A DNA stretch of 64,000 nt from assembly GCA_037447655.1 (NCBI GenBank), contig JBBHKE010002482.1:37489-101488 (forward strand), in the 5' to 3' direction. The notes under the pieces are model-generated. The model was not told the origin of the DNA. It did not search any database and worked only from the letters and a program-made list of their open reading frames with translations. This stretch comes from Zygnema cylindricum. Lineage: Eukaryota; Streptophyta; Zygnematophyceae; Zygnematales; Zygnemataceae. The stretch's first letter is position 1. Each line of letters opens with the position of its first letter. Positions 16,616 to 38,255 of the stretch are shown here, in pieces. The position numbers and the translations under genes are program-made.

Positions 16616-16815
16616 TGTCGAGCGTGCCTGGGAACCAGGAGGTTCAGGTAAGATGTCCAAAGGAGGTGTGCATGAGAAACCTGCAATCCACCCCAAATGC
16701 TGATGCTTCCCCGGATCCGTGACCATGCCCATCTCTGTTACCCCCCCAGGGATATGCATAGATAGTTAGGAGGAATGGAGTGGAAAAGAAAAGTATCCAG
16801 TACCCCCCCTGATTT
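16616..16815 (-). repeat. gypsy-1 terminal repeat B2
   Basis: About 200 bases, nearly identical to B1 at 18003-18203 (about five differences by eye). Its outer end, GCTCGACA on the minus strand, is the 3' end of the integrated element. The same word ends gypsy-3 at 40575. Confidence 0.9.
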
Positions 16816-18000
16816 TGTGCTACTCCGCTGGAAGCTCACTAAATGCCACACTCCTAGCTACTCTCCAAAGAATAGGAAGGAAATGAGAGTCGTCCGATCT
16901 GTTCCGCAAAAACTCCGACAAACCCAAGGAGGACCACAAGAGTGTGCAAATAACTTCCACGCAGAAATAGATAAATAACAAATATCGGCTTTTCAGATTA
17001 AACAATATCACCTTGCCCCAGAGAATGGAATTAAAGATAGAAATAAATGATTATGGTGAAGCGAATTCACATACCCCGGAGTACAACGATGACCAAACTC
17101 AGCAGAAGAAAACCTCTCCCAATGGCCCCGATGACAGGTATGAGTCTCCCTCACCCTCCCGGTTCCCCCGCAAGGATCTGACAATACTCTTCTTAGTTTC
17201 AAACAGCGGAAGTCCAAACCGCCCAAATAGGAGATAGTGCCAACTACCCACCCATGCTACTGTCTCCACAAAAGACAATCCAAAACAAAGATGGCAATAG
17301 AGTCAACGACACAATGCAACCGTTCTCCAACAGAAAGATTGATTCACTTCTCTGAGGGTTTTCTCAGGAGACAGTACTGAAAAGCCACCTGTCTCCTTCG
17401 GCCCCAAGTGCCTTATACAACCAGAGTTTGTCCTACTGCAAGTTCAAAAGTCAAAGCAATTTAACAAGCCAATCAGCGGCCAGCAATTGTTATCGTCCTG
17501 ACATAAGACAAAACAGACTGTACTACACTCAGGTCTAAAATATAGACGACTGGTTTCGGCTGGATTGGCGGCCGAAGGTCCTTCTATATTACACAAAATG
17601 GAAACAAAGTTTTGACTCGACGTGAAACCGCCTAACTTTGTCCCAATGTCATAAATGCTTGGCCCGGTTATGGGGCCTGAACTAACATCCTATTGACAGC
17701 TAACAGTAAGATCTACGGGATAATCCCAAAGGTTACGTGTCGTTCTCTAATGTATCCCTCTACTAGAGCTACATAGAACACACAATATAATAGAGCATGC
17801 ACTTTGCACCAGACTAACTCCTCAGTTCGACCTCCGTTTAAGGTGAACTAAATTGCGTAGGGCTCCAGGGTGAAAATATAAAGATCTGATCCGGCTGATT
17901 GTCCTTTTCCTCCTCCGTACGCTAGAGTTCGTACAAAGTAGAAGCAAGCCTCGGAAATCCTGGGAGTGCAAATGTGCCGAAGATGCACACAAGCTTGACA
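16816..18000 (-). repeat. gypsy-1 terminal repeat A2
   Basis: This 1.18-kb repeat matches A1 (27863-29044). On the minus strand it starts TGTCAAGC and ends GTAGCACA. It contains the TATA box (17412-17417) and the transcript-start region (17374-17396) also seen in A1. It is followed directly by B2, not by flanking DNA. Confidence 0.9.
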
Positions 18001-18002
18001 GC

Positions 18003-18203
18003 TGTCGAGCGTGCCTGGGAACCGGGAGGTTCAGGTAAGATGTCCAAAGAAGGTGTGCATGAGAAACCTGCAATCCACCCCAAATGCTGATGCTTGCCCG
18101 GATCCTTGACCATGCCCATCTCTGTTACCCCCCCCAGGGATATGCATAGATAGTTAGGAGGAATGGAGTGGAAAAGAAAAGTATCCAGTACCCCCCCTGA
18201 TTT
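18003..18203 (-). repeat. gypsy-1 terminal repeat B1
   Basis: B1 lies between the purine tract and A2. The joint to A2 reads GCTCGACAGCTGTCAAGC on the minus strand, an almost perfect palindrome around CAGCTG. A1 on the other side of the element has no B copy, so A1 - genes - B1 A2 B2 is a split direct repeat. Confidence 0.9.
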
Positions 18204-18215
18204 CCCCCCCCTCTT
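18204..18215 (-). promoter_or_regulatory. Polypurine tract of gypsy-1
   Basis: AAGAGGGGGGGG on the minus strand, just 5' of B1. Gypsy-3 has AAGAGGGGGG at the same place (38854-38863). If used as plus-strand primer, the reverse-transcribed terminal repeat would be B plus A, not A plus B. Confidence 0.75.
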
Positions 18216-18245
18216 AGTCCCACGTGACTAAAAGGATTTGACAGA

Positions 18246-18800
18246 TTAACCGCCAAACTCGCAGTCCCCACAGAACCACGGATTTGCCGGTTGAGAGCGG
18301 GGCTCCCAATTCAGAGGTAAGCAGCAGTCATGCCACCCTTGGTGACAGCGGTTACACACCAACAGGAGGTCGGGTAAGGATGACATATGGCAGGCAGAGG
18401 AACAGGCTGGGGGGTCTGCAAAGTAAGTGAGGTGGAAAGTGGGTTCATCCTCTAACCCTCGAAGATAGCAAGGAGCCACATTGATCTGATTTTCTTTAAT
18501 TTTGCGGCCATCCTTCCCTTCCAAGGTAAGAAACCCTTTGTTGGAGACCTCCACAACTTTCAGAATCACCCGTCCGGCCGAAATGTCCAAAGTATCCTGC
18601 TTCTGTTGCATGCAATACACAAAATCCCCTGGCACAAATCGCCGTTGCCGTGGGACATAATTGGCGCTCCGTCGTTGGGAATACCAGAGTTGATCCATGT
18701 GCTGAGCAGCCTGTAAATTGCCCATGGCCAGAGGTATTTCCCGCTCAAATACCTTCGCCCTGTTGGCAATCAGTTTCTCGACCGTCCCCCGATTGTCCAT
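18246..18800 (-). CDS. gypsy-1 Pol C-terminus: integrase tail and PHD-like zinc finger
   Basis: The open stretch of 184 residues continues the integrase frame after a TAG near 18828. Residues 1-115 resemble the basic, SH3-like C-terminal part of gypsy integrases (RFVPGDFVYCMQQ, then VILKVVEVSNKG). Residues 130-181 form a PHD-like C4HC3 pattern: CSSAC, VCNRCHQGWHDCC and WFCGDC, including the aromatic residue before the last CxxC. PHD fingers commonly read histone H3 tails, so the domain may guide integration, as chromodomains do in chromoviruses; that is inference. The stop is TAA at 18246-18248. Gypsy-3 keeps all the zinc ligands. Confidence 0.82.
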   Translation of the reverse strand: MDNRGTVEKLIANRAKVFEREIPLAMGNLQAAQHMDQLWYSQRRSANYVPRQRRFVPGDFVYCMQQKQDTLDISAGRVILKVVEVSNKGFLTLEGKDGRKIKENQINVAPCYLRGLEDEPTFHLTYFADPPACSSACHMSSLPDLLLVCNRCHQGWHDCCLPLNWEPRSQPANPWFCGDCEFGG

Positions 18801-19436
18801 CTCCGGTAGAACAACCGCCTAAGCTGATGCAGCCCTTGGTAGGATGGGATGTCGGCCGAAGAGAATGAAGTAAGGGCTATAGGAGTGGAGAGATGCCTGC
18901 CTGCTGAACCTGTATCCCATTGCAATCCAAGGCACCCGTGTGTCCCATTCCCCCTAATCCTCTTCCATCGCATATTTTCGTAGTGACCGCTTCACTGTCT
19001 GTATGCACCTCTCGGCCAATCCGTCGGCTTGGGGGTGGTCTCGGCTGGTCAATCTGTGGTCAATGAGGCACTTCTCCAGAAGGTTAGAAAATTCTCCGGC
19101 AAACTCTGACCCCTGATCCGTCAGAACTTCGGTCGGGGCTCCAAATTGAGACAACACTCTCTGCAAAAATGCGTCCGCGATAGCTTTGGACTCCTTTCGG
19201 GGAAGAACCACCAATTCAATCCATTTAGAGAAGTGTTCTATCATGACCAGAACAAAACGGTTCCCCCTCCGGCTAGTGGGAAGTGGTCCTAGCAGATCCA
19301 GGGACCATCTGTAAAACATCCCCCGGATGGGGAGGGAATGAAGCTCAGTCCCACCCTTTTTTTCAAAAGCTGCTTTTACCCCGTCGCTTGAAGGGCACGT
19401 TTGCACCACACGATTGACCTGGGCCCCGCAACCCAT
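18801..19436 (-). pseudogene. gypsy-1 integrase core
   Basis: This is the DDE integrase that inserts the DNA copy. The three acidic residues are present: YRWSLDLLGPLP, VLTDQGSEF and DGLAERCIQT. The frame stops at TAG (18954-18956), where gypsy-3 has Leu (EEDLGEWD), and again just before AVVLPEM near 18822. The zinc-binding N-terminal part is reached only through a frame change near 19400, where VNRVVQTCP links to the upstream piece. Confidence 0.9.
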
Positions 19437-20100
19437 GCCACCAATACGACCCTGTGACTAGCGAGGTGGTTCGTTTCTGTCCGAAATGCCTGCATTGTTG
19501 TTGAAGCCGAACAATGAGCGTTTCCCGATCTGCCGGAGGAGGAACCACTTTCCTCGTCCCATTGGCCCATTTTCGGAGAAAAATGCCTCGGTCCCATTCA
19601 TAAGCCGCCATTCGGTTCTGAACACGGGATAATTGACTTCCGGCAAGGTGGGGTAGAGGAGAGCCCTTCTGGATAGATTGGAGGGAATCGTTGTCATTCC
19701 ATATATCTTTCCGGCCGACTCCAATGGGGGCCTGCCCCTCTACATCTGCAGCAAAAGTTGACAGTTCTCCTTCGGCCCGAGGCAGCCAGATAAAAGCAGA
19801 GGAAGCCCGGATAAGTCCCAGGTTGAGCTCAGGGTCCTCGTCATGTCGCGCCCTAGTAGAGTCTCTGGTGGAAGGGTCCGAATTCCGGCTGAGTCCGTCG
19901 GTATTCCCATGAATCTCCCCGACTCTATGGATGATGCTGAAATCATATTCCTGCAGGATGAGAACCCATCTGGCCAGCTTTCCAGTCAACTTACTGTTCT
20001 CCATGATCCATTTGAGGGGCTGGTGATCCGTAATAAGGGTAAAGTGTACTCCATAGAGGTAAGGCCTGAAGTGTTGGATGGCCCAAACCGCGGCCAGTAA
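19437..20100 (-). pseudogene. gypsy-1 RNase H C-terminus and integrase zinc region
   Basis: The frame continues from the RNase H start after a TAA at 20101-20103, where a GAA or GAG codon is expected. It shows the end of gypsy RNase H (ITDHQPLKW, LARWVLILQEYDFSIIHR, GNTDGLSR). A linker and a degenerate integrase zinc region (CRHFGQKRTT, WWHGLRGP) follow. The first His of the HHCC motif seems changed, so zinc binding is doubtful. The frame breaks near 19400. Confidence 0.85.
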
Positions 20101-20604
20101 TTACCCATAGTAACTGTTGTAATTCCCCTCGGCTCTGTTATCACTCCGGCTTGCGTAGGCTACTACATACTCAGCCCCTGCGTCGTCCAATTGAGCCAAA
20201 ACTGCTCCTAATCCAAACCTGCTCCAATCTGTATAAAGGAGAAAAGGCCGCTGGTGATCGGGCATCCGAAGCACAGGATGCTGTTTGAGGGAATCTTTCA
20301 GGAATTGGAACGCTATCTGCTGTTCTTCCTTCCACTGCCACTCCTGGTCCTTTCGCAACAATTGGTTCAATGGCTGAGCGTGACTACTGAATTCAGGAAT
20401 AAACCGCCGGTAATAGTTGGCAAGGCCCAGGAAAGTACGCAGAGCAGAAATGTCTTGCGGGGGTGGAAGAGCGTCTAGGGCTGCCACCTTAACCATGTGG
20501 GGACCCACTGTCCCGGGAGTCACCTCATGACCCAGATAAACAATTTTCTGCACCCCAAAGATGCCCTTCCCCGGGTGACATTTCAAACCCGTTGCTTGGA
20601 GTGC
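20101..20604 (-). pseudogene. gypsy-1 reverse transcriptase thumb and RNase H N-terminus
   Basis: After a TAG at 20605-20607 (probably a former CAG, in VLQALQ), the frame holds KCHPGKGIFGVQKIVYLGH, the thumb block LRTFLGLANYYRRFIPEFS, and the start of RNase H (LLYTDWSRFGLGAVLAQ, with the first Asp). These are standard Ty3/gypsy signatures. It ends at TAA 20101-20103. Confidence 0.92.
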
Positions 20605-21204
20605 CTAGAGAACGATCTGTATGTGCTCCAAGTGTTCTTTGAATGTCTTGGAGAAAATGATAACATCGTCGATATAACACCATGCGAAATCAATTCCCCG
20701 GAGAGCCTCGTCCATGGCCCTTTGGAATTTGGCAGGTGCATTCTTGAGGCCAAACGGCATATACAGCCATTCATATAGCCTGGATCCGACCCAAAAAGCA
20801 GTCCTCTCTCGGTGTTTCGGCTCCATTGCAATCTGGTGGAATCCATTTTTCATATCCAAAGTGGAGTAGATAGTGGCCCCAGCAAGAGAGTCGAAGATCT
20901 CTTCCGGGGTAGGCATAGGATAACGGTCGGAGACAGTTGCCGCGTTGAGCATCCGATAGTCCCCACACATCCGGAAATCTGCAGTTTTTCCGGAGGAGTC
21001 TTTCTTTGGCGGGAGCACGGTTGGTGAGGCAAACCCATGTAGTCCTGTACTCTCCTGAACCAGCCTTGCTTCCACCAAAGTCTGCACCTTTGAAGTGATG
21101 AACTCCTTCTCCTTGAAACTGATAGGGTACTGTTTCTGCCAAACAGTAGCTGTCTCATCGATCAGGTCATAGATCCCTACATCTGTGTCAGACCAGGCGA
21201 ACAC
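20605..21204 (-). pseudogene. gypsy-1 reverse transcriptase
   Basis: The 199-residue open stretch has the conserved gypsy blocks: HGFASPTVLPPKKDSS, FRMCGDYRMLNAATV, YSTLDMKNGFHQIAM, YMPFGLKNAPAKFQRAMDE and the catalytic CYIDDV. All three catalytic Asp are present (LDMKNG and YIDD). Upstream, a TAG at 21205-21207 stands where gypsy-2 has a Gln codon before VF. The sequence after MDE (about 20705) is what gypsy-2 lacks. Confidence 0.95.
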
Positions 21205-22793
21205 CTACCAGTTCTCTTCTAACAGCTTGGAGAGCCGGGCCTTCTGCTGTGGGTCTAGCTGTTCACCTAGAGTCCAGTCCATCTTCTCAAGTTCCACTGC
21301 CGCCAATGCTTCCGGTGGTCTACCCAAGAGAGAGATGTCGAAGTTCAGCTCTACATGTGGGTTTGTCCCTTGTTTGGCTGTTAAAACGCTGCTGCTAACA
21401 ACTTCCTCTAAGCTGTCCTGTTCTAAGACCCCGTTCCCCCCCACTAAAGAAACTCTTGGGTCCAGTGTGCCATTGCTCCCCCCCACTGAGGAAGTTCTTG
21501 GGAATTTGGTGAATGTGAATTTTTTCCGCCTTGTCTCTCTCCCCCTCTCAAGCTTTAGAGTTGCTTGCATGGCCAACAACTGTGGAGCTTGAAGGTACGT
21601 TGTCCGTGATTGTGGAGACTGAAGGCTTGAGAATGCAAGAGAATGTTTTAGCACCCAGGAGATTGCATTTAAATCCATACTTTGTCCGATTAAACTGCAC
21701 CTTTTTGAGGCCGATACCCCCGGCGCCGCTGTGGTTCCCTGTTGAAACCCCATTGCTTGTTCCCGTTCTGTAATATTCGGCGCTGTCCACGTGGCGGTTG
21801 TACTGTCAAAGATCATTCCTGGTGCGCCCTTCCGGTAAGCGTGGCTGTTTGGAAAAGATACCAGAGTTGGTAGGGCCCTCCGTGGATACCCAGGCTTATT
21901 ACAACAGAAGAAGGGTGCTTTGTCGGATGTGATCACCGGGTGGCCATTCGCCCCGGTCCGAGGATCTGTTGGACCGTGATGTTGGGATCCGTAACCTGTG
22001 TTCTTAACAGCTGTTGGAGGATTGGAAGAGGAACCAAGTTGGTCCAATATGCCCGAACTCTGTGGGCTCTTGATCCGATCTGAGCTGCATCAAAAACTAT
22101 GGGAGTTCCTAGAACCTTGGTCACTTGGTTCCAGCTGTTGACCACCTGTTTTCTCTTATCATCTATGGGGTGTACGTTTTCCAAGACGTACCCCATTGGT
22201 GTGTCCTAGCGTTCCTGTAACCTTGTTATTAGTCTGGTCATTTGAAAGAAAATTATGCTACGGACGTCCTGGTGTCCTCGGCCCTGTCCAGCTAACGAAT
22301 ACCCCTGGCATGGCCATCCAGCGACCACCTGGTCTACCCTTCCGAGCTTTTCCAAATGGGAATTTGTGATATTATCCACATTCTGGGGAAGCGTGCGATG
22401 AGAGTTAGACATGGCGGACACCGGGAGTTGCTGTGGGTAAAGTTGGTGCAGCTGTTGCAGGCGGTACTCACTGACTGCACGGGCGTCCGGGTCAATCTCG
22501 ACTGCCGAGTAAGTTTCTATTTGATATCCGGCTTTCAAGACGGCTTCCAGATCGGAACTAATGCCAGAAAATAGAGATAGAATCCTAAGTCCTGAAAGCG
22601 GGATTTGTAGTGACACCACTTGTCGATTAAAGTCTTTCCCTTTGTTAGGAACCGTTGGAAGTTCCGACCGGGGGACTTTTGCTGCTCCGGGTGATATTGC
22701 AGCCAAGCTCCTGTCCACTTCCCGCCGAAGTGTGGCCATCTGTACCAATCGGTTCTGATACTCCCTTTCCCACCGCTTGGAAATAGGGAATTG
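21205..22793 (-). pseudogene. gypsy-1 DNMT3-like cytosine-C5 DNA methyltransferase domain
   Basis: The domain lies between protease and reverse transcriptase. Motif I is LRILSLFSGI (about 22560-22574), motif II AVEIDP (about 22488-22502), motif IV VVAGWPCQGYS with the catalytic Cys at 22308-22310, motif VI YVLENVHP (about 22173-22181), and motif VIII SRAHRVRAYWTNL (about 22037-22073). The C-terminal part has TEREQAMGFQQG and RCSLIGQSM. The order and the AHR motif resemble the DNMT3 family. It is broken by TAG at 22206-22208 and a shift near 22000. A methyltransferase could act on the element's own DNA or on host silencing; its role is unknown. Gypsy-2 and the unrelated gypsy-4 carry it at the same place. 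Confidence 0.9.
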
Positions 22794-23450
22794 CTAGATA
22801 GAATCAACGATATCGTTAGAGTATTTGAACAACTCTGAGGGGGTTGAAGCAGAGTAGACGGGATAGCATCCAGACACCAGAACAGTCTTTTTTCCCCGGT
22901 TCCACAAATCCAAGGGGACCACCACTTTTGTTCCTTCAGGATCCTCAGGGTTTAAGACTGTAACTTGTTCCTTCCATATGCTCAACTCCATGTTCAATCT
23001 TGTCCACGTAGCCATACCCAGCAAAATTTCAAATTGCTTACCTTCCATCACTAGGAAGGGGAGCCAAATCTGCACATGTTGGCGTGCGTCGTTAGCAAAT
23101 TCGATTTCCATGGCTTTTATGATCCCATATACTGGTTGGCTGCCACTGCTGACCATGCTCAAGCACATGTCACTTGGACTGATTTTTGGCCGGAGTTCCT
23201 CGGGCATTTGTTGTAACGCTGATGTAGTTATTAGGTTTGGAAGAGCTCCCGTATCCACTACTACATCTTGGTACCCGCCGTATCCATTAAGTTTAAAATT
23301 TCCCGTCCTGTTGAGAATAAGGGTCACCGAAAGGGCCTTATAATCCCTATCTGCCATAGAGGTTTTTGGTTGTGACGACATGAAGACTGTCTTGGGCGAT
23401 GCTGCCAACGCGACGCTCTTCCTCATAATGTGAATTTCTTCCCCTAATGC
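22794..23450 (-). pseudogene. gypsy-1 aspartic protease
   Basis: The region has the retropepsin active site VVVDTGALPNLI and, later, the FEILLGMATW flap and second signature region. It is in frame with gag across a TAG at 23451-23453, where gypsy-2 has CAG. It ends at TAG 22794-22796, and this stop is shared with gypsy-2 at 31131-31133. In both copies the next codons are CAA TTC and the methyltransferase frame continues without a shift. Upstream, MRKSVALAA follows a short linker. Confidence 0.9.
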
Positions 23451-26400
23451 CTAAATGAGGGCTTCTTCGGGCAGATTGTGGGAGGAGGCAAGTGTTTTGA
23501 CATGCGTCAAAGCGTAGGGCATCAATTGTCGTACTAGCATAACTGCCGGTTTGGAGGAAGGAGGGAGAGCTTTGGGCGATGAAATGGGTGAGTCCTCGTC
23601 TTCCGATTTCTCCTGTTCCCCCCCCCCTGCTTCCTCACTTTCTGCGTCAGAATTTCCCGTAGGAGGTGTAATTGGCGGATCTGTGAACGGTCTCTCAGCC
23701 ATGTATCTGTCGAACCACTCCTGATCTGTTTCAGTGGTTGAAGTATTTCCTTTCGGCTGTGTCTTCTTGTAATCTTCAAAATCGGGAGGAAGTTTCTTCG
23801 GAGGCGGAGGAGGCGGGTTTGTCGGCTTGATTCCCAGTCCAATGTTACTGTTCAGAAGGACTGCTCGCGGGGCAAAGGATAAGGGGCCTGTGGCTTTGCG
23901 ACTGTGGTCCTTTTGTTCCATCGATTGCTTGTCTTTCCTTTGGGAGGACGTGGTAAAGCGCAGTTGCCTGCGACTGTCCCCTACACCAACGTTCCATGCT
24001 CCGGACAGAAATGTCCTAGCATGTTGAGCCTTTGGAGGCTCCAAATCCCAACCCATCAGGTCATCATCATCTCCACCCAATGTGGTCTGCTGCTCCAGCT
24101 CCGCTAGCTGTTGTAGCAGTTCTTGTTTTTGTTTCTGCAGTTTCTGAGCCGGCGTAAGAGGTTGAGGAGTGCGGGCAGTGGATCTCAGTCGTAGAGCGGC
24201 CAGTTCCGTTGCCAAAGCGGCCAACTGAGTGCTTTGTTGCTGAATGATTCGTTCCGGTGTCAGTCTGCTGGGGCCCGGTTCATTTGGAGATCGTCCCCAG
24301 GGATACAAAAGTTGCAGTGGCAGAGGATTAACGGCAGTTTCCCCTTCGCCTGTAAACAATGCATACTGCATCATCTCCTTAGGAACCCCATTTTTCCGAA
24401 AGCATTGCCCCTCTTTGTGGCCCATGAACCCACAAGCTTCACATTTTGATCCTTCAGTGGTATACTTCCCCCTTAGCTCATTCGAGATTTGAGCGTCATC
24501 AAATTTTGGAAGTCGGATTTGTCTCAACTGGGATTGAGACATTTTGGCGGTTTCAGAGCGTGGAGTAGGTTTATAGGTTTCTTTAGTGACCGGGGTTCGG
24601 TCTCCTCCTCCGCTTCCTTGCTTGCGTTCTTGCTGTTTCCTTGTCCTTTCCGCACGCTCCCTCTCAAACTCCTTCTGCTTGATGGCGAGTTCTGGTTTGA
24701 GCTTTCGGGGGCACCTCTTCCATCCGTGACCGGGCTGGTTACAGTTCAGGCAGTCGTAAAGAAATACTTTTTCATCCCCCCCCATTGCAGGTTCTGGTCG
24801 GGCAACCGCTTCCTGTTTCCCTTTAAGCTTCCGCAAAGCTTGCAGTTCTGTCTGTTCGTCGTGGCTGAGCGTTGTTTCCCCGGCGAAACCTGCAAAGTTG
24901 GCTCTGGATTTTCCGGTGACAGCCTTTTCTCGTGCCTCGCTATTAACAAAATGATCATACAATTTCATTGCAGCCAATGAAATTTCTTGAGCTGTGGGAT
25001 TTCGATCGTGTATGGCCTGACTGGCACTCCAATTGTCTAGAGCAGCCTGCCCCGTTGGCCCGAAGGAATTTCGAACAGCGACATAATATTTGGTAGCCAT
25101 AGCCGGTGTATCGATGGTGGACAGTTTGGTCTTCTGGCAGAGGCTGGAGAGTCGGTTGAACAGCGTCTGGGGAGTTTCATTCTTCAAACAGCGGAAGTCT
25201 GTGAACTCCTTGATGGCAGTTTCATTCCTTTCTGTGTAAAGGAGTCTCCAAGCGTCCAGAAGAGTGGTACAGGGATTGGGATTGGCAACCATCCGGGTTG
25301 CCGCTTCAGCTGCTTGTACTGCCTGAAGGTGGTTGACGTAGGCCCTGCCTTGGGCCTGAAGTTTCATATCCATGGTGAAAGTGGGGGTGAGAGGAGCTGC
25401 GGCTGCGGCGGCCAGGTCGGCTGCTGCTTGAAGAGCCTCGGCGTCCAGATCCGGATCCGATATTTTGATACTGGGGGCCATCAACAGAGGTTGACGTTCC
25501 TTGTAATCGGCCAAAGCTCCTCCGGCTAGATAATTGACCATCATCGGAAACAGGGTTGTTTCAAAATCTGCAGGAATGGCCCCTCCCCTGTATTTGTTGA
25601 TTTCAGATTGGGTGAACGACTTCCACAACAATTCGAAATCAGAGAAAGCGATTCCCGAGCTATCTCCTGTGAAGATCCTTACGTCCCCCATTTTTTTTCC
25701 CTCCTCTGCAAGGTTGGTGAACTGTGAAGAGGAGGTTCCGGTTGGGCTAACAAACTGAACCGGTGAGATTACCCCTGGATCTGCGTTGTCTGGTTCGGGC
25801 CCGACTCCTTCTTCGGTAGAGGGAGCGGTCTGACGAGAGATAGTACTTCCCCCCACTGAGAAAGTTACGGTTACTGGTGGGATAGTGAGATGACCAGTAT
25901 CTCCCTGGAGTTGGCCCTTGGGAAACGAGGAGCTTATCACCTTGGGAAAAGCTGCCCGAAGTCCTGCCCCTCTATACCCAGGAGATGCCTGTTCCCCCCG
26001 GCGAACTGTTTCCACCGAGGGAATGTTGAGAATAGGTTTAGTCACCGGTGGTTCTTGAGGGATTGGTGGAGAAGGGGATGGAGATGGCCGAGGACTACGA
26101 GGGAAAGGGGTCTGTCTCCGTGTACGCCTACTGGAGGTTTCTGGTGGCGGAGTTCCTTCGCTAGAACCGGGAGAACGTCGGTGAGGAGGAGAGTAGGCAG
26201 GAACGTCGTACTTGTAGGGTAAGACAGGTGGTCCCGGTGACCCACGAACCGCAGCGGCCGGAGAAACAGGAGGCGAAGGAGAGGATGCCTGAGGTGGCGA
26301 TGGAGGAGGAGTGGTAAGTCCGAGGGAAATGTGTAGTCTCTGGTCGGGTTGTAGCTGCACCACGGCTTCCACGGTAGAAGATCCCTTGACCGAGACAGCT

Positions 26401-26744
26401 GTAGGGAGACCTGTAGCTGCGGCTACCGGACTTTTCGGCAAATCTGCACCCACCCCACTTTTGTTAGGCCCTGTTGTTTCCTCCCCTTCCCGCTGAAGAG
26501 GAGATTCTGGTCTCGGTTCTGGTGAAGTCCGGGGATCTCGCGTGACAGGAGGAGTTGCCTGATCCAGAGGTTGTACTTCCGTCGCAGGACCTGTTCTACG
26601 AGGAGGTGCTACCTGTCCACTAAGGATTCCCCCAGATCTCCGTCTAGCCTCCCGTATCAGGATCAGCTCCTGTTCCAATGCTCTCTTCCTTTCCTCTTCA
26701 AGGGCATCCCAATCTATTGCGACGGGTCCGGCCCCCGGCCGTAG
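23451..26744 (-). CDS. gypsy-1 Gag, central and C-terminal part
   Basis: About 1,100 residues are open. A Pro/Ser-rich N-terminal third is followed by a helical capsid-like region (SDFELLWKSFTQSEINKYRG; AWRLLYTERNETAIKEFTDF; TLFNRLSSLCQKTK). Two zinc knuckles follow: CLNCNQPGHGWKRC (about 24711-24752) and CEACGFMGHKEGQC (about 24403-24444). A Gln/Leu coiled-coil-like stretch (LQKQKQELLQQLAELEQQ) and a Pro-rich tail complete it. At about 1,400 residues with the N-terminal piece, this Gag is several times the usual gypsy size. The frame is joined to the N-terminal part by one shift near 26745, since gypsy-2 is continuous there. Confidence 0.88.
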   Translation of the reverse strand, partial: LRPGAGPVAIDWDALEEERKRALEQELILIREARRRSGGILSGQVAPPRRTGPATEVQPLDQATPPVTRDPRTSPEPRPESPLQREGEETTGPNKSGVGADLPKSPVAAATGLPTAVSVKGSSTVEAVVQLQPDQRLHISLGLTTPPPSPPQASSPSPPVSPAAAVRGSPGPPVLPYKYDVPAYSPPHRRSPGSSEGTPPPETSSRRTRRQTPFPRSPRPSPSPSPPIPQEPPVTKPILNIPSVETVRRGEQASPGYRGAGLRAAFPKVISSSFPKGQLQGDTGHLTIPPVTVTFSVGGSTISRQTAPSTEEGVGPEPDNADPGVISPVQFVSPTGTSSSQFTNLAEEGKKMGDVRIFTGDSSGIAFSDFELLWKSFTQSEINKYRGGAIPADFETTLFPMMVNYLAGGALADYKERQPLLMAPSIKISDPDLDAEALQAAADLAAAAAAPLTPTFTMDMKLQAQGRAYVNHLQAVQAAEAATRMVANPNPCTTLLDAWRLLYTERNETAIKEFTDFRCLKNETPQTLFNRLSSLCQKTKLSTIDTPAMATKYYVAVRNSFGPTGQAALDNWSASQAIHDRNPTAQEISLAAMKLYDHFVNSEAREKAVTGKSRANFAGFAGETTLSHDEQTELQALRKLKGKQEAVARPEPAMGGDEKVFLYDCLNCNQPGHGWKRCPRKLKPELAIKQKEFERERAERTRKQQERKQGSGGGDRTPVTKETYKPTPRSETAKMSQSQLRQIRLPKFDDAQISNELRGKYTTEGSKCEACGFMGHKEGQCFRKNGVPKEMMQYALFTGEGETAVNPLPLQLLYPWGRSPNEPGPSRLTPERIIQQQSTQLAALATELAALRLRSTARTPQPLTPAQKLQKQKQELLQQLAELEQQTTLGGDDDDLMGWDLEPPKAQHARTFLSGAWNVGVGDSRRQLRFTTSSQRKDKQSMEQKDHSRKATGPLSFAPRAVLLNSNIGLGIKPTNPPPPPPKKLPPDFEDYKKTQPKGNTSTTETDQEWFDRYMAERPFTDPPITPPTGNSDAESEEAGGGEQEKSEDEDSPISSPKALPPSSKPAVMLVRQLMPYALTHVKTLASSHNLPEEALI

Positions 26745-27765
26745 CCTTATCCTGCGATCGCAGAATCTCAACCAATTTCTGGGTGCTGCTCACCACACCC
26801 GAGAGATCCGCAATCCCCAAACCGGGTACCTCAGGGTCCGTAGGCCTGGAACGCCATAGTCCTTCGGATGGTCGGACAACTGGGCCCGAAGGAGGCATAG
26901 AACTCTGGGAAACTGAGGCAGAAGGAAAGAACGGCTCGTCTTTGACCAGGGGAGCGAATCGACCTTTGCTGTCCCGATGGCTGAACCGGAAATCTTTCTT
27001 AGGCTCAGGTACCTTTCGCTTGCTACTCCCTTCCCTGGTCCGGCCCCGAGAAGTTGCTATGCCCCTAGAAGGTCTACTAGTAGCAGTTTCCTGAGATATG
27101 GTGGGCTGTGGTCGTGAAGTGGACGGCATCTCCGGTTGCTCTCGGGCTGAGATGGGAGAGCCACTCTCGGACGAGCTACTCAGAATCTCCACTACTCCTC
27201 CCACAGGGCGTATGATCCGGGCTCGGTCACTTCTGGCAACCCGCTGCACCAGCTCCTTCTTAACCTTCAACTCATGGATATTGTGAAGGGCTAGAATCTC
27301 CTTACGACCGGGTCGGTTAGGGTCCGACAAGAGTTCAGGATCCATGTATGTCTCCACTATTGGAGCCTTAGATCTGGTATAACGTACCACCTCGGGAGGG
27401 TGGCCTGGGACCGCTTCCTTGTGAGCCAAACCCTTTCTACGAGATCGGGGAGATAAAGGTTGTTTTTCTACCTTCCCCGTGGCCCTAGCCCTGGCGGCCT
27501 CGGACAACGTCGGAAAGTTTTCAGGGGAAAAGACTGGAGGAGGTGGAGGTGAGGGTTGCCTCTCTGTCGGCCTTGGAGGAGTCTCGACGACAACCGGAGG
27601 GGGCATCATCCCCTTAAGAAACTGTTCAATGTTCAAAGCAGAGGTGAAAGGGACCGATCCCTCAGGCACCTGGGACTCTTCCTCTCGTGCCACCCCTTCT
27701 TGTCTTTCCTGTTCTTCCGGACTAACACCGGAAGGATCCCTATCCGGAGATTCTCCTCCGCCCAT
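26698..27765 (-). CDS. gypsy-1 Gag, N-terminal part
   Basis: The ATG at 27763-27765 is the first after the primer site and starts MGGGESPDRDPSG; gypsy-2 has a matching start, MRRGEVHDNDLPG, at 36388. The 355-residue piece is rich in Pro, Ser, Arg and Glu and has no recognised domain. Blocks shared with gypsy-2 include ILALHNIHELKVKKELVQR, VVEILSSSSES and VVSSTQKLV. The last ~20 residues are out of frame after the shift near 26745. Its function is unknown; a matrix- or chaperone-like role in particle assembly is possible. Confidence 0.82.
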   Translation of the reverse strand: MGGGESPDRDPSGVSPEEQERQEGVAREEESQVPEGSVPFTSALNIEQFLKGMMPPPVVVETPPRPTERQPSPPPPPVFSPENFPTLSEAARARATGKVEKQPLSPRSRRKGLAHKEAVPGHPPEVVRYTRSKAPIVETYMDPELLSDPNRPGRKEILALHNIHELKVKKELVQRVARSDRARIIRPVGGVVEILSSSSESGSPISAREQPEMPSTSRPQPTISQETATSRPSRGIATSRGRTREGSSKRKVPEPKKDFRFSHRDSKGRFAPLVKDEPFFPSASVSQSSMPPSGPVVRPSEGLWRSRPTDPEVPGLGIADLSGVVSSTQKLVEILRSQDKATAGGRTRRNRLGCP

Positions 27766-27839
27766 GACTTACACAAGCAGATGAGCTAGATTTCTCGGAT
27801 AAAATACACCACCCTAAGCAGCTATCCTCTTAAACAAAA

Positions 27840-27862
27840 GGGGACAGGTGGCTTTTCAGTAC
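27840..27862 (-). promoter_or_regulatory. Self-complementary primer-binding site of gypsy-1
   Basis: These 23 bases follow A1 directly. They are complementary to the predicted 5' end of the element's own transcript: 21 of 23 bases pair with 28417-28439 in A1 and 22 of 23 with 17374-17396 in A2. No tRNA 3' end is recognisable. This is the layout of self-primed elements such as Tf1. Confidence 0.8.
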
Positions 27863-29044
27863 TGTGCTACTCCGCTGGAAGCCCACTAAATGCCACACTC
27901 CCAGCTACTCTCCAAAGAATAGGAAGGAAATGAGAGTCGTCCGATCCTTTCCGCGAAAACTCCGGACAAACCCAAAGATGACCACAAGAGTGTGCAAATA
28001 ACTCCCACGCAGAAATATAGAAATAATAAGCTTTTCAGATTAAACAATATCACCTTGCCCCAGAGAATGAAATTAAAGATAGAAATGAATGATAACGGCG
28101 AAGCAAATTCACATACCCCGGAGTGCAACGATGGCCAAACTCAGCAGAAGAAACCTCTCCCAATGGCCCCGAAGACCGGTATGAGTCTCCCTCAACCCTC
28201 CCGGTTCCACCGCAAGGATCCGACAAGACTCTTCTTAGTTTCAAACAACGAAAGTCCAAACCGCCCAAAGAGAGAATAGTGCCAACTACCCACCCGTGCT
28301 ACGGTCTCCACAAAAGACAATCCAAAACAAAGATGGCAATAGAGTCCATGACAAAATGCAACCGTTCTCCAATAGAAAGATTGATTTAAATTCTCTGGGG
28401 GTTTTCTCAGGAGACAGTACTGAAAAGCAACCTGTCTCCTTCGACCCCTAGTTCCTTATACAATTTGAGTTTGTCCTACTGCAAGTTCTAAAGTCAAAGC
28501 AATTTAGCAAGCCAATCAGCGGCCAGCAATTGTTATCGTCCTGACATAAGACAAAACAGACTGTACTACACTCAAGGCTAAAATATAGACGACTGGATTC
28601 GGTTGAATTGGCGGCCGAAGGTCCTTCTATAATACACAAAATGGAAACAAAGTTCTGACTCGACGTGAAACCGCCTAACTTTGTCCCTACGTCATAAATG
28701 CTTTGCCCGGTAGTTGGGCCTGAACTAACATCATACTGACAGCTAACAGTAAGATCTACGGGATAATCCCAAATGTGACGTGTCGTTTTCTAAGGTATCC
28801 CTCTACTAGAGCTACATAGAACATACACTATAATGGATCAGACACTTTGCACCGGACTAACTCCTCAGGTCGACCTCCGTTTAAGGTGAACTAAAGTGCG
28901 TAGTGTTCCAGGATGAAAATAGAAAAGATCTGATCCGGCTGATTGTCCTCTTCCTTCTCAGTACGCTAGAGTCCGTACAAAGTGGAATGAAGCCCCGGAA
29001 CTCCTGGGAGTGCAAATGTGCCGAAGATGCACACGCGCTTGACA
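27863..29044 (-). repeat. gypsy-1 terminal repeat A1
   Basis: On the minus strand it starts TGTCAAGCGCG at 29044 and ends GTAGCACA at 27863. It matches A2 along its length; over the outermost ~185 bases about one in ten positions differs. Its start abuts gypsy-2 reverse transcriptase directly. It has no B segment at either side. Confidence 0.9.
28431..28460 (-). promoter_or_regulatory. gypsy-1 core promoter (TATA box and predicted transcript start)
   Basis: TATAAG on the minus strand lies at 28455-28460. The GGAGACAGG word that begins the self-complementary block starts 21 bases downstream, so initiation about 25-30 bases from TATA would fall inside it. A2 (17412-17417) and gypsy-3 (39711-39716) keep the same 21-base spacing. 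Confidence 0.65.
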
Positions 29045-29600
29045 CCTCGTCCATGGCACGTTGGAATTTGGCTGGCGCATTCTTCAGCCCGAATGGCATG
29101 TAGAGCCATTCGTACAACCTGGACCCTGCCCAAAAAGCTGTCCTTTCCTGGTGCTTTGGCTCCATCGTGATCTAGTGGAATCCATTCTTGATGTCTAGGG
29201 TGGAGTAAATGGTGGCCCCGACCAGCGAGTCAAAAATCTCTTCCGGGGTAGGCATTGGGTATCCGTCAGGTACAGTTGCTGTGTTAAGCATCCAGTAGTC
29301 TCCACACATCCGAAAGTTTACCGTTTTCCTAGAAGAGTCCTTCTTGGGTGGGAGAACGGTAGGGGACGCAAATCCATGGAGTCCGGTACTTTCCTGCACC
29401 AATCCTGCTTCCACCTAAGTTTGTACCTTTGCAGTGATGAATTCCTTTTCCTTGAAACTGAGAGAGTACTGCTTCTACCAAACAGTAGACGTCTCGTCTA
29501 CTAAATTGATTTGAAAGGGGGTCCCATTGTAGATGCCTACGTTGATATCTGACGAGGAGAACACTTGTTTGTTCTTCTCCAACACGTCAAAGAGCCGGGC
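29045..29600 (-). pseudogene. gypsy-2 reverse transcriptase, N-terminal part
   Basis: Blocks HGFASPTVLPPKKDSS, FRMCGDYWMLNTATV, YSTLDIKNGFH, YMPFGLKNAPAKFQRAMDE are recognisable, as in gypsy-1, but YIDD is absent because the sequence ends at 29045. A TAG near 29172 and another near 29415 interrupt the frame, and Q-V-F before the polymerase start is intact, which shows what the gypsy-1 stop at 21205 replaced. Confidence 0.92.
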
Positions 29601-29639
29601 CTTTTGCTGAGGGTCCAACTGCTCCCATAAAGTCGAATC

Positions 29640-31130
29640 CATCTTCCCGGGTTTAACCGCTTCCCATGCCTCCGGAGGTCTACCCTAACGGGAGATATCA
29701 AATTTTGACCCTACCTGTGGGTCTACCTCCCCTCCTTTGTCAAAATGGTGCTGCTAACAACTTCCGCTAAGTTGTCCCCTTCCGAGCCTCCTCTCCCCCC
29801 CACAGAGGAATCCCTTAATTTCGGTAAAATTTTGGGACTGGAAAATTTTGATGATAAAAACTGTTTTCTTGCCTCCCCCCCCCCCTCAAGCTTCAAGTGT
29901 GCCTGCATTGCTAACAACTTTGGAGCTTGAAGGTAGCTAGCCCTTGATTGCGGAGACTCTAGGCTAGAGAAGGCCAGAGAGTGTTTTATCACCCATGTTA
30001 TTGCATTTAGATCCATGCTCTGTCCGAGTAGGTTGCACCGCTGGAGGTCTAAAATACCTGGTGCCGCCGTGCTGGCAGGTTGGAATCCTATGGCTTGTTC
30101 TTATTCTTCCATCGTTGGCGTTATCCAAACTCCACTTCCGCTGTCAAATATCATTTCGGCTGCTCCCTTGCGTTACGCATTGCTATTGGGGAAGGAAACC
30201 GACGTTGGTAGTGCTCGCCGTGGTGCTCTTGGTTGGTTGCACTGGAAGAACAAAGGACGGATCAGCCTTAGTTACAGGAGTGGCCATCCGCCTTGGCCCT
30301 ATAATTTGTTGCAGGGTAATCTGGGTATCTCTTTTGTGGTTCTGTAATAGCTTGTTCAGGACTGACAGAGGTATCAAATTGGTCCAGTACGCCGGAACTC
30401 TGTGAGCCCTGGATCGTAGTTGCGCCGCATCGAAAACAAGTGGAGCTCCTAGAATTTGCTTGACTTTATTCCAGCTATTTGCGACTTGTTTTCTCTTATC
30501 ATCTTTCGGGTGGACATTCTCCAAAACGTACCCCACTGGTTGGTCTTCGGACTGCTAAAGCCAAGAAAGTAATTTGATCATCTGAAAGAAGGTTCGACTT
30601 CTGCTGTCCTGATGTCCCTCGCCTTTCCCAGCTAGAGAGTATCTTTGAGATGGCCATTCTGCAATCACCAAATCTACTCGCTCCAGCATAACGAGATGTG
30701 GCTTCAGGATATTGTCTATATTTTGCGGGACACTTCGGTGAGATCTGCAGATGGCGGATATTGGAAGTTGTTGGGGATACAATTGGTGGAGTTGTTGTAG
30801 TCGGTGGTCACTGATGGCCCAAGCATCCGGTGAAATTTCCACGGCCACATATGACTCCACTTTATATCCAGCTTTTAAGACAGCTTCCAAGTCTAAGCTA
30901 ATTCCAGAAAATAGGGATAACATCCGGAGTCCTGAATCCGGGATAGATAATGACACCACTTGTCGATTGAATTTTTGATTGTCGGGCGGAACTTCCGAAG
31001 ATTCCGACCAAGGTTCTTTTTCCTTAGAAAAAACAGTTGTCAAGGATTTGTCCACTTCCCGCCGCAGTGTTGTTATCTGTAATAATCTGTTTTGATATTC
31101 CTCTTCCCACCGCTTAGAAATAGGGAATTG
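29640..31130 (-). pseudogene. gypsy-2 DNMT3-like methyltransferase domain
   Basis: The layout is as in gypsy-1: LRMLSLFSGI (motif I), AVEISPDA (motif II, with Asp changed to Ser), motif IV AEWPSQRYS, YVLENVHP (motif VI) and SRAHRVPAYWTNL (motif VIII). The catalytic Cys of PCQ is Ser and the next residues also differ, so this copy should be inactive. The frame breaks at a TAG near 30555 (Gln in gypsy-1) and at later shifts near 30180 and 30016. The C-terminal part (MDLNAITWVIKHS) is present. Confidence 0.88.
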
Positions 31131-31916
31131 CTATATTATATCTGCGATATCGGTGGCGTTGGCGAGCAGTTCTGTTGGTGTGTGGGCGACATAGACGGGA
31201 AAACATCCAACTACGGGAGCATTCTTTTTCCCCTTATTCCATAGATCTAGGGGAACCACCATCTTGACCCCTTTCAGATCCTCAGGATCTCGAACAATAA
31301 ACTGCTCCTTCCACACACTCAATCCCATATTCATCGTTGTCCTTGTGGCCTTTCCCAATAAAATTTCAAACTGCTTACCTTCCACCACCAAGAAAGGAAG
31401 TTGAATTCGGACCTTTTGACCTGCGTCATCGGCGAACTCGATTAACATAGCTTTGATTATTCCATGTATCGGTTGACTCCCACTGCTAAAAGTACATAGG
31501 CAGATGTCACTAGGGAAGAGTTTCGGTCGAAGTTCTTTAGGCATTCGCTGCAGAGCGGATGTAGTGATTAGATTTAGGAGTGCTCCTGTATTGACAATTG
31601 CGCCTTGATATCCGCCGTATCCGTTAAGTTTGAAATTTCCCGTCCGGTTGAGGATTAACGCCACAGATAACGTTTTGTAGTCCCTATCGATCATAGGTGT
31701 CTTTGGGTCGGCTGACCAAAAAACGGATCTGGCCTGATCGGCCCGGTGTTTCTCCCCTCCTGAATGGATTTCCTCTCCGAGGGCTTGGATGAGAACTTCC
31801 TCCGGCAAATTATGGGAAGAGGCCAGTGTTTTCACATGGGTGAGGGCGTAGGGCATTAGATGCCTTACTAACATCACTGCTGGTTTGGAGGAAGGAGGTT
31901 GAATTTTTGGCGACAA
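31131..31916 (-). CDS. gypsy-2 Gag C-terminal end and protease
   Basis: The frame runs without a stop from the Gag tail (LVRHLMPYALTHVKTL) into protease (IVNTGALLNLI). The sequence EEVLIQALGEE has CAG where gypsy-1 has TAG. The active-site triplet reads NTG, not DTG, so the protease is probably dead. The end is TAG at 31131-31133 followed by CAA TTC, the same as in gypsy-1. Confidence 0.85.
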   Translation of the reverse strand: MSPKIQPPSSKPAVMLVRHLMPYALTHVKTLASSHNLPEEVLIQALGEEIHSGGEKHRADQARSVFWSADPKTPMIDRDYKTLSVALILNRTGNFKLNGYGGYQGAIVNTGALLNLITTSALQRMPKELRPKLFPSDICLCTFSSGSQPIHGIIKAMLIEFADDAGQKVRIQLPFLVVEGKQFEILLGKATRTTMNMGLSVWKEQFIVRDPEDLKGVKMVVPLDLWNKGKKNAPVVGCFPVYVAHTPTELLANATDIADII

Positions 31917-34900
31917 AATGGGAGAATCTGCTGGTTCCTCCGGTTGTTTTTCGTTCTCCTCCCCCTTGCTTCCTCACTTTTGTGGTCGGATTCCGGCGCA
32001 GGCGGCGTTTCTGGTGTGTTATCCTCCGGGCGTTCCGCCAAATATTTTTCGAACCAGTCTTGGTTGTCACGCTTTTCTTCCTCCTTTGCTTGTTCCTCAA
32101 TCTCCCTCATTTTAGTTGTTCGTAATTTTCGAATCTGGGAGGCAGTTTCTTTGGGGCTGGTGGAGGTGGGTTTGTAGATTTTATCCCAAGACCTATTTTG
32201 TCGTTCAGGATGAAGGCCCTGGGAATGAAGACAAAAGTCTAGTAGCGTTCTTATTGTGGTCTCCTGGAGCTAGTTTTTGCCTGTCTCTTCTTTGCGCCGA
32301 GGTTGAGTTATGGAGCTGCCTGCGATTGTCCCCCACACCGACATTCTAGGCTCCAGAAAGGGATGTCTGGACGTGATGTGCTTTAAGAGGTTCCATGTCC
32401 CACCGCATCACCTCGTCATCGTCTTCGCCCGCTGTTGTTTCTTGTTCAAAGCTCCACCAACTTCTGTAATAATTCCTATTTTCGCCAGTGGAGTTTCTGG
32501 GCGGCCGTCACAGCAGGAGTCTTAGAGGCTAGTTTTTGCCCATCTCTTCTCTGCACTGAGGTTGAGTTACGGAGCTGCTTGCGATTGTCCCCCGCACCGA
32601 CATTCTAGGCTCCAGAAAGAAAGGTCTAGGCGTGATGTGCTTTAAAAGGTTCCATGTCCCACCCCATCACCTCGTCATTGTCTTCGCCCGCTGCGGTTTC
32701 CTGTTCAAGCTCCGCCAGCTTCAGTAATAACTCTTGTTTTTGCCGGTGGAGTTTTTGGGCGGCTGTAAGAGCTGGAGTCTTGGAGGGCGATCCTAATCGC
32801 AGTGCTGCCAATTCTGCAGCCATGGCAGCCATCTGCTGGCTCTGCTGTTGAATGATAACCTTCGAGGTTAGTCGTGCTTGACTTGTTGGCAGTCGTTCCG
32901 GGTTTTTCGGGGTGCGGCATCCCCAAGGGTAAAGAAGCTGCAGCGGGGGAGGATTCACGGCCATTTCACCTTTGCCGTTGAACAGGGCATATTGCATCAT
33001 CTCTTTAAGAACTCCATTCTTCCGGAAACACTGCCCTTCCTTGTGACCCATGAAACCGCAAGCCTCACACTTGGAGCCCTCAGTAGTATATTTGCCCCAT
33101 AATTCATAGGAGATTTGCGCGTCATCGAATTTTAGAAGTTTTATCTGTCGCAACTGGGCTTGCAACATTTTTGCAGTCTCGCATCGTGGAGTCGGACGGA
33201 AATTATCTTTGTTAACCGAAGTTTTGTCGTCTGACCCTCCTCTTTGTTTCCTTTCTTGCTGCCTCTTGGTCCTTTCAACTCTCTCCTTTTCCCATTCCTT
33301 CTACTTCAGAGCTAATTCCGGTTTGAGCATCCGGGGGCAGCGCTTCCATCCATGACGTGTTTGTTCACATTACAAACTGTTATATAAGAAGACTCGGTCA
33401 TTGGCCCCCATGGCGGGTTCGGATCAGCTATCCACCACCTCTTTCCCCTTGAGCTTCCGCAAAGCTAAGAGTTCGGCTGACTCCTCATTGTCAGGAGGCA
33501 TTTCTCTGGCAAATCGTGCAAAGTTCCCTTTGGTTTTTCCTGTTACCGCCTTTTTTTTGGCCTCTCTATTGACAAAGTGGTCATAAAGATTCATCGCGGC
33601 CACCAAGATTTCTTTGGCGGCCGGATTGACGTCCTGGATGGCTTATCTCGCAATCCAATTATCGAGGGCAGTTTTCCCCGTGGGTCTGAACGAATTTTGG
33701 ACCACGATGAAGTATTTGGTGGCCATCGTCGGAAGGTCAATTGTTGATAGTTTGGTCTTTTAACAGAGGCTGGACAATCTGTTAAAAAGAGTCTGGGGAG
33801 TTTCACTCTTTTGGCAACAGAATTCCGTAAATTCTTTGATAGCAGATTCATTTCTTTTAGTGTAAAGGAGTCTCCAAGCATTCAAAAGAGTTGTACAGGA
33901 GGTTGGGTCTGCAACCATCCGAGTGGCTGCTCTAGCACCCTGGATGGCCTGAAGCTGAACAGCATAGGCTCGTCCTTGTGCTTGTAGTTTCATGTCCTCT
34001 GAGAAGAGGGCACTGACAGGAGCGGCTGCAGCAGCAGCCAAGTCGGCTTCTTCCTGCAAGACTACCTCATCAAGGATAGGGTCTGAAATTTTGATGTTGG
34101 GAGCCATTAGGAGAGGTTGTCGCTCCTTGTAGTCTGCCAACGCGCCACCAGCAAGATAATTTACCATCATGGGGAAACGCGTATTTTCGAAGTCATCCGG
34201 AATGGCTTTGCCCCTATATTTGTTGATTTCGGACTGAGTGAAAGATTTCCACAGCAATTCAAAATCCGAGAAAGCGATTTCGAAACTATCTTCCGTAAAG
34301 ATCCATAAGTCACCCATTTTTTTTTCCTCTTCTGCAACGTTGGTGAACTGAGAAGAGGATGGTCTAGTGGAGCTGACAAACTGAACCGGTGAAATTACCC
34401 CTTGATCTGCGTCGTATAGCTTGGGGCCGCCTCCTTCTCCGGTAGAATGAGCTGCCTGAAAAGGAATGGGTTCCCCCTTGCTGAGGAAGTTCCAGCTACT
34501 GGTGATTTAGCGAACAGACCTGTATATCCCTTGGGTTTGCCTCTGGGAAAAGATGAGACTATTAGCCTGGGAAAAGATGTCCGAAATTCTACTCCTCTAT
34601 ACCGAGAAGAGGGGCGTTCCTCCCCGAGAACAGTTTCCACCGAGGGGATGTGGAGAAGAGGGTTAATCACAAGTGGTCCTTGAGGGATTGGTGGAGAAGG
34701 GGATGGAGATGACTGAGGGCTAAGAGGAAAAGGTGTCTCTCTCTGTGTAAACCTTTTGGAGGTTTATGGTGGAGGAGTTCTTTCGCTGGAAGCGGGAGAA
34801 CACCGGTGAGGAGGTGAGTAGGCAGGGACGTCGTATTTGTATGGTAAGATAGGTGGGTAGGGTGACCCACGGACTGCAGCAGCAGGAGAAACGGATCCCG

Positions 34901-36388: not shown

Positions 36389-36460
36389 AGCTGACTGGAG
36401 AAGAAGATCTAAATCCCCTTATAAAAGTACTCCGCCCTGAGCACCTATCCTCTTTAACCT

Positions 36461-36486
36461 AAAGAGACAAGAAGCTGTTTGAGTAC
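36461..36486 (-). promoter_or_regulatory. gypsy-2 self-complementary primer-binding site
   Basis: It lies directly after A1. About 20 of 26 bases are complementary to 37056-37081 in the transcript-start region of its own A1. The pairing is weaker than in gypsy-1, as expected for an old copy. Confidence 0.6.
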
Positions 36487-37719: not shown

Positions 37720-38255
37720 GAACTGAGCTTGAATCTTTTCCTATCCGTGGGATGTTTTATCGGTGGTCTTTAGATCTTCTGGGATCTGTTGCAACCAGCA
37801 GACAGGGGAATTGTTTTGTGTTGGTCATGATTGAACATTTTTCAAAATAGATATAGTTGGTGGTTTTGTTCCGCAAGGAGTCCAAGTCAATTGTAGATAC
37901 TTTCTCCCAGTGGGTGCTGTCGCAGTTTGGGGCCCCAGCAGAGGTTCTAACAGACCAAGGGTCCAATTTTTTTGGAGAATTTACCAATCTTTTAGAGAAA
38001 TGCCTCATCGATCATTGACTGACAAGCCGCGACCACCCCTAAGCCGACGGTTTGGCTGAATGGTGCGTACATACAATGAAGCTGTCACTACGGAAATATG
38101 CACTGGAAGAAGATTTGGGAGAGTGGGACCGAAGGGTGCCTTGGATCGCCATGGGATACAGATTCAACAGATAGGCCCCTCTCCACTCCTATAGCCTTTA
38201 CTTCAATTTTTTTCGGACAACATCCCATCCTGCCTGTGCTGCCTTAGCCTAAGCG
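37720..38255 (+). pseudogene. gypsy-3 integrase core, decayed
   Basis: Recognisable blocks are RGMFYRWSLDLLG, SQFGAPAEVLTDQGSNF, EKCLIDH, ADGLAEW and RRVPWIAMGYRFNR. Several nonsense codons stand where gypsy-1 has sense codons (Trp and Glu after HFSK, Arg in IDHR, Gln in HPQA), and most of these are C-to-T or G-to-A changes. The three acidic residues remain, but the frame is unusable. Confidence 0.9.

Follow-up and report, generated by a model that had tools for sequence, protein, structure and literature searches.

Split direct repeats in a gypsy-type retrotransposon family of Zygnema cylindricum suggest integration of joined-end cDNA by a DDE integrase

The analysed window, a stretch of 64,000 nucleotides from Zygnema cylindricum (assembly GCA_037447655.1, contig JBBHKE010002482.1, positions 37,489 to 101,488), holds on its minus strand gypsy-1, a retroelement with a gypsy-type DDE integrase whose two direct repeats, A and B, are split between its ends in the order A1-genes-B1-GC-A2-B2, as shown in Table 1. 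The coordinates of the four repeats and their order on the minus strand, as given in a preliminary description of this DNA, were found to be correct, and the repeats of the window copy are 91.4% (A1 and A2) and 97.5% (B1 and B2) identical. Reverse transcriptase (RT), RNase H and integrase follow one another with an rve core as in Ty3/gypsy elements (Metaviridae), and the integrase scores (Pfam rve, 2e-13; Ty3 integrase structure 7q5b, 9.6e-12) bear out the DDE integrase that had been named. Identical long terminal repeats (LTRs) at both ends, a Ty3/gypsy trait, were not observed, as A stands at the 5' end and B-A-B at the 3' end.

The coding region also includes the N-terminal part of a Dnmt3-like C5 cytosine methyltransferase, with what we take to be the FSG and PCQ motifs; the nearest among the solved structures was DNMT3A, and a protein search with this piece returned no matches. 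Chromoviruses carry a chromodomain behind the integrase, where a PHD-type zinc finger sits in gypsy-1. Among the 48 relatives of the RNase H piece, the organism named was the liverwort Calypogeia fissa. The pol frames of the window copy are interrupted, and an Rfam scan of the window gave no match. A tyrosine-recombinase element of the PAT/Ngaro kind, misread as gypsy, would have an identical repeat order; such elements are not known to make a target duplication, as against 4 bp in this family, the rve integrase has Ty3 affinity, and no Pfam match to a tyrosine recombinase was obtained in the 20 scanned of the 98 window open reading frames (ORFs) of at least 60 aa. On these three grounds this reading, to which we give next to no credence, was rejected, even though cytosine methyltransferases are also described from DIRS elements of Symbiodinium in passages of PMC5890265.

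Table 1. Position and strand of the parts of gypsy-1 and of the related elements beside it in the window.
Feature	Coordinates	Strand	Remarks
A1, 5' end of integrated element	27863..29044	-	starts TGTCAAGC, ends GCACA
TATA-like box in A1	~28460	-	
Presumed RNA start in A1	~28440	-	
Presumed primer-binding site (PBS), GTACTGAAAAGCCACCTGTC	27843..27862	-	would pair with presumed RNA start in A
ORF, 356 aa stop to stop	26701..27768	-	gag-like judging from position alone; no Pfam family
ORF, 1112 aa stop to stop	23454..26789	-	gag or unknown, judging from position alone; no credible Pfam family
Weak aspartic protease match, PF13650	22797..23450	-	E 0.0014, below cut-off
C5 cytosine methyltransferase, N-terminal part	22209..22793	-	Dnmt3-like
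Reverse transcriptase, RVT_1	20608..21204	-	
RNase H and H2C2 zinc-binding pieces	19366..20604	-	two frames; H2C2 below cut-off
DDE integrase core (rve)	18957..19457	-	nearest solved relative Ty3 integrase
Integrase C-terminal region with PHD-type zinc finger	18249..18818	-	E 0.0014, below Pfam cut-off; motif visible
Polypurine tract (PPT), presumed plus-strand primer	18204..18217	-	G run after ACTAAGA
B1	18003..18203	-	ends GCTCGACA
Two bases GC between B1 and A2	18001-18002	-	
B1/A2 joint, GCTCGACA-GC-TGTCAAGC	17993..18010	-	near-palindrome; proposed integrase cleavage site (in cDNA)
A2	16816..18000	-	
A2/B2 junction, GCACA/AAATC	16806..16825	-	canonical form here; proposed scar of joined cDNA ends
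B2, 3' end of integrated element	16616..16815	-	ends GCTCGACA
gypsy-2 (related element), 5' part	29045..37719	-	A1 at 5' end; interrupted within RT by start of gypsy-1
gypsy-3 (related element), 3' part	37720..40575	+	same repeat order; pol end, then B1, A2, B2
gypsy-3 B1	38864-39126	+	
gypsy-3 A2	about 39127-40314	+	
gypsy-3 B2	40315-40575	+	

The repeats were searched for in the whole assembly (352.8 Mb, 2689 contigs), with only the best 40 candidates of each search scored, so that the locus counts are samples. For A, the best 40 of 1372 candidates gave 41 matches, of which the 38 loci outside the window were all examined: 17 show A followed by internal sequence with no B upstream, nine show internal sequence-B-A-...-B (counting L015, which has 323 bp of internal sequence between its A2 and B2), nine are solo A-B copies and three are truncated in A. 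For B, the best 40 of 296 candidates gave 23 loci additional to the A set, picked by their score to the whole of B, whereby copies broken inside B are under-represented; these comprise 13 B-A-B ends, two solo A-B copies, one A-B copy truncated at its 5' side, four with internal sequence-B without a second A, in which other DNA follows B directly, and three in which B is attached to a shortened internal region. A search for further 5' ends gave 40 matches, 17 already in the set, 20 sampled by short windows and three left out; the A start was visible in 18 of those 20, and 17 of the 18 directly abut non-element DNA. L073 and L074 add two more 5' ends, the link of L074 to the internal region resting on distance. 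The relatives of gypsy-3 (family 3), about 75–83% identical to the window gypsy-3 and sampled as 20 short loci of 41 matches, present the same picture: B ends in GACA in 15 of the 20 and is changed or was not found in the other five, the B/A joint is seen in L097, L099 and L113, and the A/B junctions vary. No 3' ends were found at the places predicted 12–14 kb from ten of the 5' ends, where other repeats lie, and for L059 and L062 the expected places showed no 5' end.

The rearranged repeat order is a real feature, present at many loci and in two sequence families. The window copy itself looks recombinant, as its flanks (GAGG and AGGA) form no target duplication and come from different repeats (gypsy-2 on the 5' side, a copia-like repeat on the 3' side), and its subfamilies are mixed, its A2 being nearer to L030 (95.5%) than to its own A1. 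These traits could be expected of an assembly artefact or a one-off rearrangement; the same order at dozens of loci on different contigs, with target duplications and in two sequence families, contradicts an artefactual origin of the B copies, which the preliminary description had named as a danger to its claim, and this explanation was rejected and is given hardly any probability.

Across the 38 A-centred and 23 B-centred loci the insertions start with TGTC in A and end with GACA in B, with a few single-base changes (such as the TATC start of L028 and L095), so that the claim that insertions start at A and end at B is upheld. The two independent 5' ends proposed at the A border of gypsy-1 and gypsy-2 both have A, and the A of gypsy-2 at 37719 begins with TTTC. 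Exact 4-bp target duplications were observed in 13 of the 19 insertions with both flanks known, comprising six of eight long copies, namely TTTC in L004/L014, AAAA in L008/L007, AGTG in L021/L023, ACGT in L010/L015, AGGA in L066/L074 and TGGA in L068/L089, and seven of 11 solo A-B copies (L002, L011, L019, L031, L034, L060 and L064); no exact duplication was found in the window gypsy-1, L063/L073, L013, L024, L020 and L026, the last two matching in three of four bases. The suggested duplications at A1 and B2 are thus present in the family and lacking at the window copy. Their length lies inside the Ty3/gypsy range of 4–6 bp. As a control, 468 pairings of 5' and 3' flanks gave 13 exact matches, eight of them true pairs by count. 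The two ends of long copies were paired by distance and orientation, and one-contig pairs without matching flanks (L017/L025, L001/L002, L006/L014 and L078/L022) stand outside the 19. Empty sites had also been called for, and L094 (contig C1981) is an unoccupied related site whose sides match the 5' flank of L012 and the 3' flank of L013, with GAAC on both; L012 and L013 lie on one contig (C544) in opposite orientation, so an inversion must have followed, and this pair was left out of the duplication count. Within four long copies A1 and A2 are 96.5–98.6% identical, indicating that these copies are not very young.

Templating of the complete element by a parental copy should leave all its internal junctions equally constant, whereas differential constancy was observed. 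With a few substitutions allowed, the B1-GC-A2 joint was intact and free of insertions or deletions in 23 of 23 cases; the A/PBS junction was intact in 19 of 20, the exception (L029) being a one-base loss inside A with the junction itself intact; and 21 of 24 PPT/B1 junctions agreed, the other three differing, as judged by eye, through substitutions. The A/B junction showed the canonical GCACA/AAATC in only nine of 33 rows, the other 24 being non-canonical (Fisher, 9e-9 versus B/A, 9e-7 versus A/PBS and 9e-6 versus PPT/B1). These 33 rows omit L015, L024 and L038, where the A end is missing or is followed by internal sequence, include L053 and L061, which share a flank, and take two rows from L031, one of them from a diverged family; L034 misses by substitutions only, L060 passed as canonical and reads more like two extra Gs, and re-reading by eye with these corrections gave 22 of 31 non-canonical. 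L053 and L061, on different contigs, agree in their odd A/B scar and almost wholly in their 3' flank, and probably stem from a single event that was duplicated along with its flank.

The non-canonical junctions include one or more leftover PPT Gs before B (e.g., L052, L053, L055, L060, L071 and L030), possibly three PBS letters (GTA) kept after A in L064, A shortened by a few bases (L011, L014, L023 and L025), B shortened by roughly 12–21 bases (L068, L015 and L011), and an incomplete internal region that runs directly into the start of B (L058, L066 and L067, with L105 in family 3). As read from these genomic copies, the variable A2/B2 junctions look like the ends of joined retroviral-type complementary DNA (cDNA). 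The target duplications of L066, L068 and L015 are perfect, and each of these copies thus looks like the product of one insertion; although a deletion at a later time could also preserve the duplication, its breakpoints should not fall so frequently within the first 21 bases of B, where five of six lie in a comparison made after seeing the data and with a selection that favoured whole B. The solo A-B copies, with TG...CA-type ends and 4-bp duplications, resemble normal solo LTRs and would suit an ordinary element whose LTR is A-B, whose 5' copy lost B and which bears an extra B before the 3' LTR, all of it templated. A templated A/B junction should match the constancy of the other junctions and does not, the PBS-like stretch lies directly after A, and the PPT precedes B, not A; such an origin is very improbable, and A-B as a conventional templated LTR was rejected for the variability of the A/B junction.

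The ends, the duplication, the constant joint and the variable scar are best accounted for by an end-joined BA-int-BA cDNA (int, internal region) that the integrase probably cuts at its left internal B/A joint to give A-int-BAB. The idea first put forward for the window copy, that the genomic form is a circularly permuted B A...B A cDNA with its opening at the internal B/A joint, is supported by the copies, their ends, the duplications and the variable A2/B2 junction. It is also fairly likely that, next to a pol of Ty3/gypsy type, the repeat used in reverse transcription (B-A, from PPT to PBS) differs from the repeat seen by the integrase. Minus-strand synthesis may be self-primed, as the presumed PBS would pair with the presumed start of the RNA within A: the match within a locus, counted over 14 nt, reaches 13–14 in 11 of 19 gypsy-1-type loci and 10–12 in the other eight, with unrelated places reaching 10–11, and only 10 of 14 in gypsy-2. 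As the PPT stands before B1, the reverse-transcription repeat would be B-A, and reverse transcription would yield BA-int-BA. The right end of this cDNA (A, beside the PBS) would then be joined to its left end (the start of B, beside the PPT), leaving the variable A2/B2 scar; the scars are observed, and the end joining is read from them. The integrase would recognise the palindrome GACA-GC-TGTC in the left repeat, where the duplex of the B/A joint is GACAGCTGTC, and a cut 3' of CA on both strands would leave two-base 5' overhangs, the form of normal 3' processing. Insertion as A-int-B-GC-A/B would follow, with the observed ends and 4-bp duplication, and B2 would arise anew in each round: it would be the left end of the cDNA itself, transferred to the right side, and no copy of the parental B2. 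We lean slightly towards a lineage in which joining of the cDNA ends before integration is obligatory, the DDE integrase is site-specific for the palindrome of the left repeat, and neither B2 nor the A2/B2 junction is templated by the parental B2.

The choice of the left joint constrains this proposal. A two-repeat circle has two equal joints and predicts two products, and the permutation seen in the genome fits such a circle as originally suggested, but the mirror product, A-B-A-int(-B), appears in none of the 39 5' ends with A and internal sequence (window included); 37 of these have no B in front, and the two that do (L015 and L087) have it as internal copies. Only one of the two predicted products being present, either an ordering rule is needed or there was no closed circle before cleavage, and the simple version of a symmetrical circle, in which either joint is cut at random, was rejected. 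In standard reverse transcription the left repeat becomes double-stranded once the minus strand copies the plus-strand strong-stop DNA, and the right repeat becomes duplex only after the plus strand has crossed the whole element. The left repeat would thus be duplex before the plus strand finishes the right one, and an integrase acting once any duplex joint exists would take the left joint; L058, L066 and L067, with an unfinished right part yet ending in B, would fit this left-first order.

The same data fit a route in which the left B/A joint is cut first in linear cDNA and the freed B is retained and joined to the right end afterwards, by end joining or by a template jump of the reverse transcriptase, with no closed circle at any time. 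This route gives the same anatomy and accounts for the left-only joint and for B on the unfinished right ends of L058, L066 and L067; a 200-bp fragment must be retained and joined in nearly every insertion, and we consider it possible though rather unlikely. Copies of the form A-int-B, with no A2, were observed in L059, L062, L063 and L069 (4/23 of the B-centred loci) and in L103 and L108 of family 3; this form is predicted by a one-repeat circle opened at its single joint, and recombination between B1 and B2 predicts it as well.

Several observations weigh against joining of the cDNA ends followed by a cut at the left joint. With the mirror product absent, a closed circle with two equivalent joints can be upheld only if the joints are cut in a set order. 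An exact duplication is lacking in six of the 19 insertions, among them L063/L073, the one A-int-B copy for which both flanks are known; two of the four long copies have an A1 slightly more similar to another locus than to their own A2, so that some copies may be recombinant; and the A/B variation could partly reflect later mutation. The arrangement of L087/L116 (contig C1673), in which B-A and 605 bp of internal sequence are joined to the middle of another A, is not the mirror isomer and has no explanation in the model as it stands. Moreover, the proposed mechanism is reconstructed from genomic copies.

Other repeats and genes were observed around these elements. One copia-like repeat is present in several copies, nested or in tandem, across 1449-16615, and the 3' flank of gypsy-1 lies in one of them; at 50446-55966 there is a copia-type element, probably inserted recently, whose gag/pol is carried by two long ORFs and whose terminal repeats are about 98.5% identical; and tandem satellite-like self-similarity runs from 59945 to 64000, continuing to the window end. 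Matches to light-harvesting chlorophyll-binding genes are arrayed on contigs C519, C2590, C1116, C610 and C1077. Among the named proteins in the best 120 of 5371 matches, one such light-harvesting protein of the assembly comes nearest to land plants (up to 85%), with 81% to an entry tagged Mesen1 (Mesotaenium) and 73–78% to green algae including Chlamydomonas, Ulva and Acetabularia, which points to a probable streptophyte host; no RuBisCO large subunit was found in the assembly.

If the proposed mechanism is true, this would be a natural family in which joined-end cDNA is a working substrate of a DDE integrase, split direct repeats would need no tyrosine recombinase, and the scar of each insertion would record the end structure of the cDNA, such as PPT cleavage, primer removal and unfinished plus strands. 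LTR-finding programs that require equal end repeats may misannotate such elements.

The family resembles Ty3/gypsy LTR retrotransposons in the order of RT, RNase H and rve, in its Ty3-like integrase and in the short target duplication, and differs from them in having two unlike ends once integrated, neither of which coincides with an end of the reverse-transcription repeat. Tf1 is a self-primed LTR retrotransposon with normal LTRs, in which the PBS can pair with the 5' terminus of the element's own RNA; a primer site of this kind is presumed here. With PAT and Ngaro the family shares the split direct repeats A1-int-B1-A2-B2 (given in passages of PMC4157794), whereas those elements use a tyrosine recombinase and this family a DDE integrase; the lineage with obligatory joining, towards which we incline only a little, would be their gypsy counterpart, reached independently. 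Integrase cleavage of a palindromic two-LTR junction is described for HIV-1 in vitro (in the relevant part of PMC1905944) and for PFV (likewise in part of PMC1180852), and such a cut is proposed here; in those systems the palindrome lies at the joined ends, whereas in this family the palindrome is internal to the repeat and the joined ends persist as a scar in the insertion. The passages on HIV-1 give exact two-LTR junctions in about 52–58% and treat retroviral two-LTR circles as dead ends (PMC1905944). No published mechanism for such an element was found in open-access titles and abstracts, subscription papers lying outside the search. The preliminary description knew of no gypsy DDE element with split direct repeats, and on this point it is preceded by KnitGypsy-Dnmt3 of the charophyte Klebsormidium nitens, for which the legend of Fig. 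4 of de Mendoza et al. 2018 (PMC5890265) gives DIRS-type repeats with gypsy domains. Compared by description only, KnitGypsy-Dnmt3 is alike in its gypsy domains, its Dnmt3-type methyltransferase in pol, its DIRS-type order and its streptophyte host; for it the portions of PMC5890265 concerned state the repeat order only, with no discussion there of target duplications, scars or mechanism, and the words circular and target site are absent from the searchable text. The repeat order thus has a precedent; within the reach of our searches, the scars, the constant joint and the target duplications, which point to a joined-end cDNA that is cut inside the repeat, are new.

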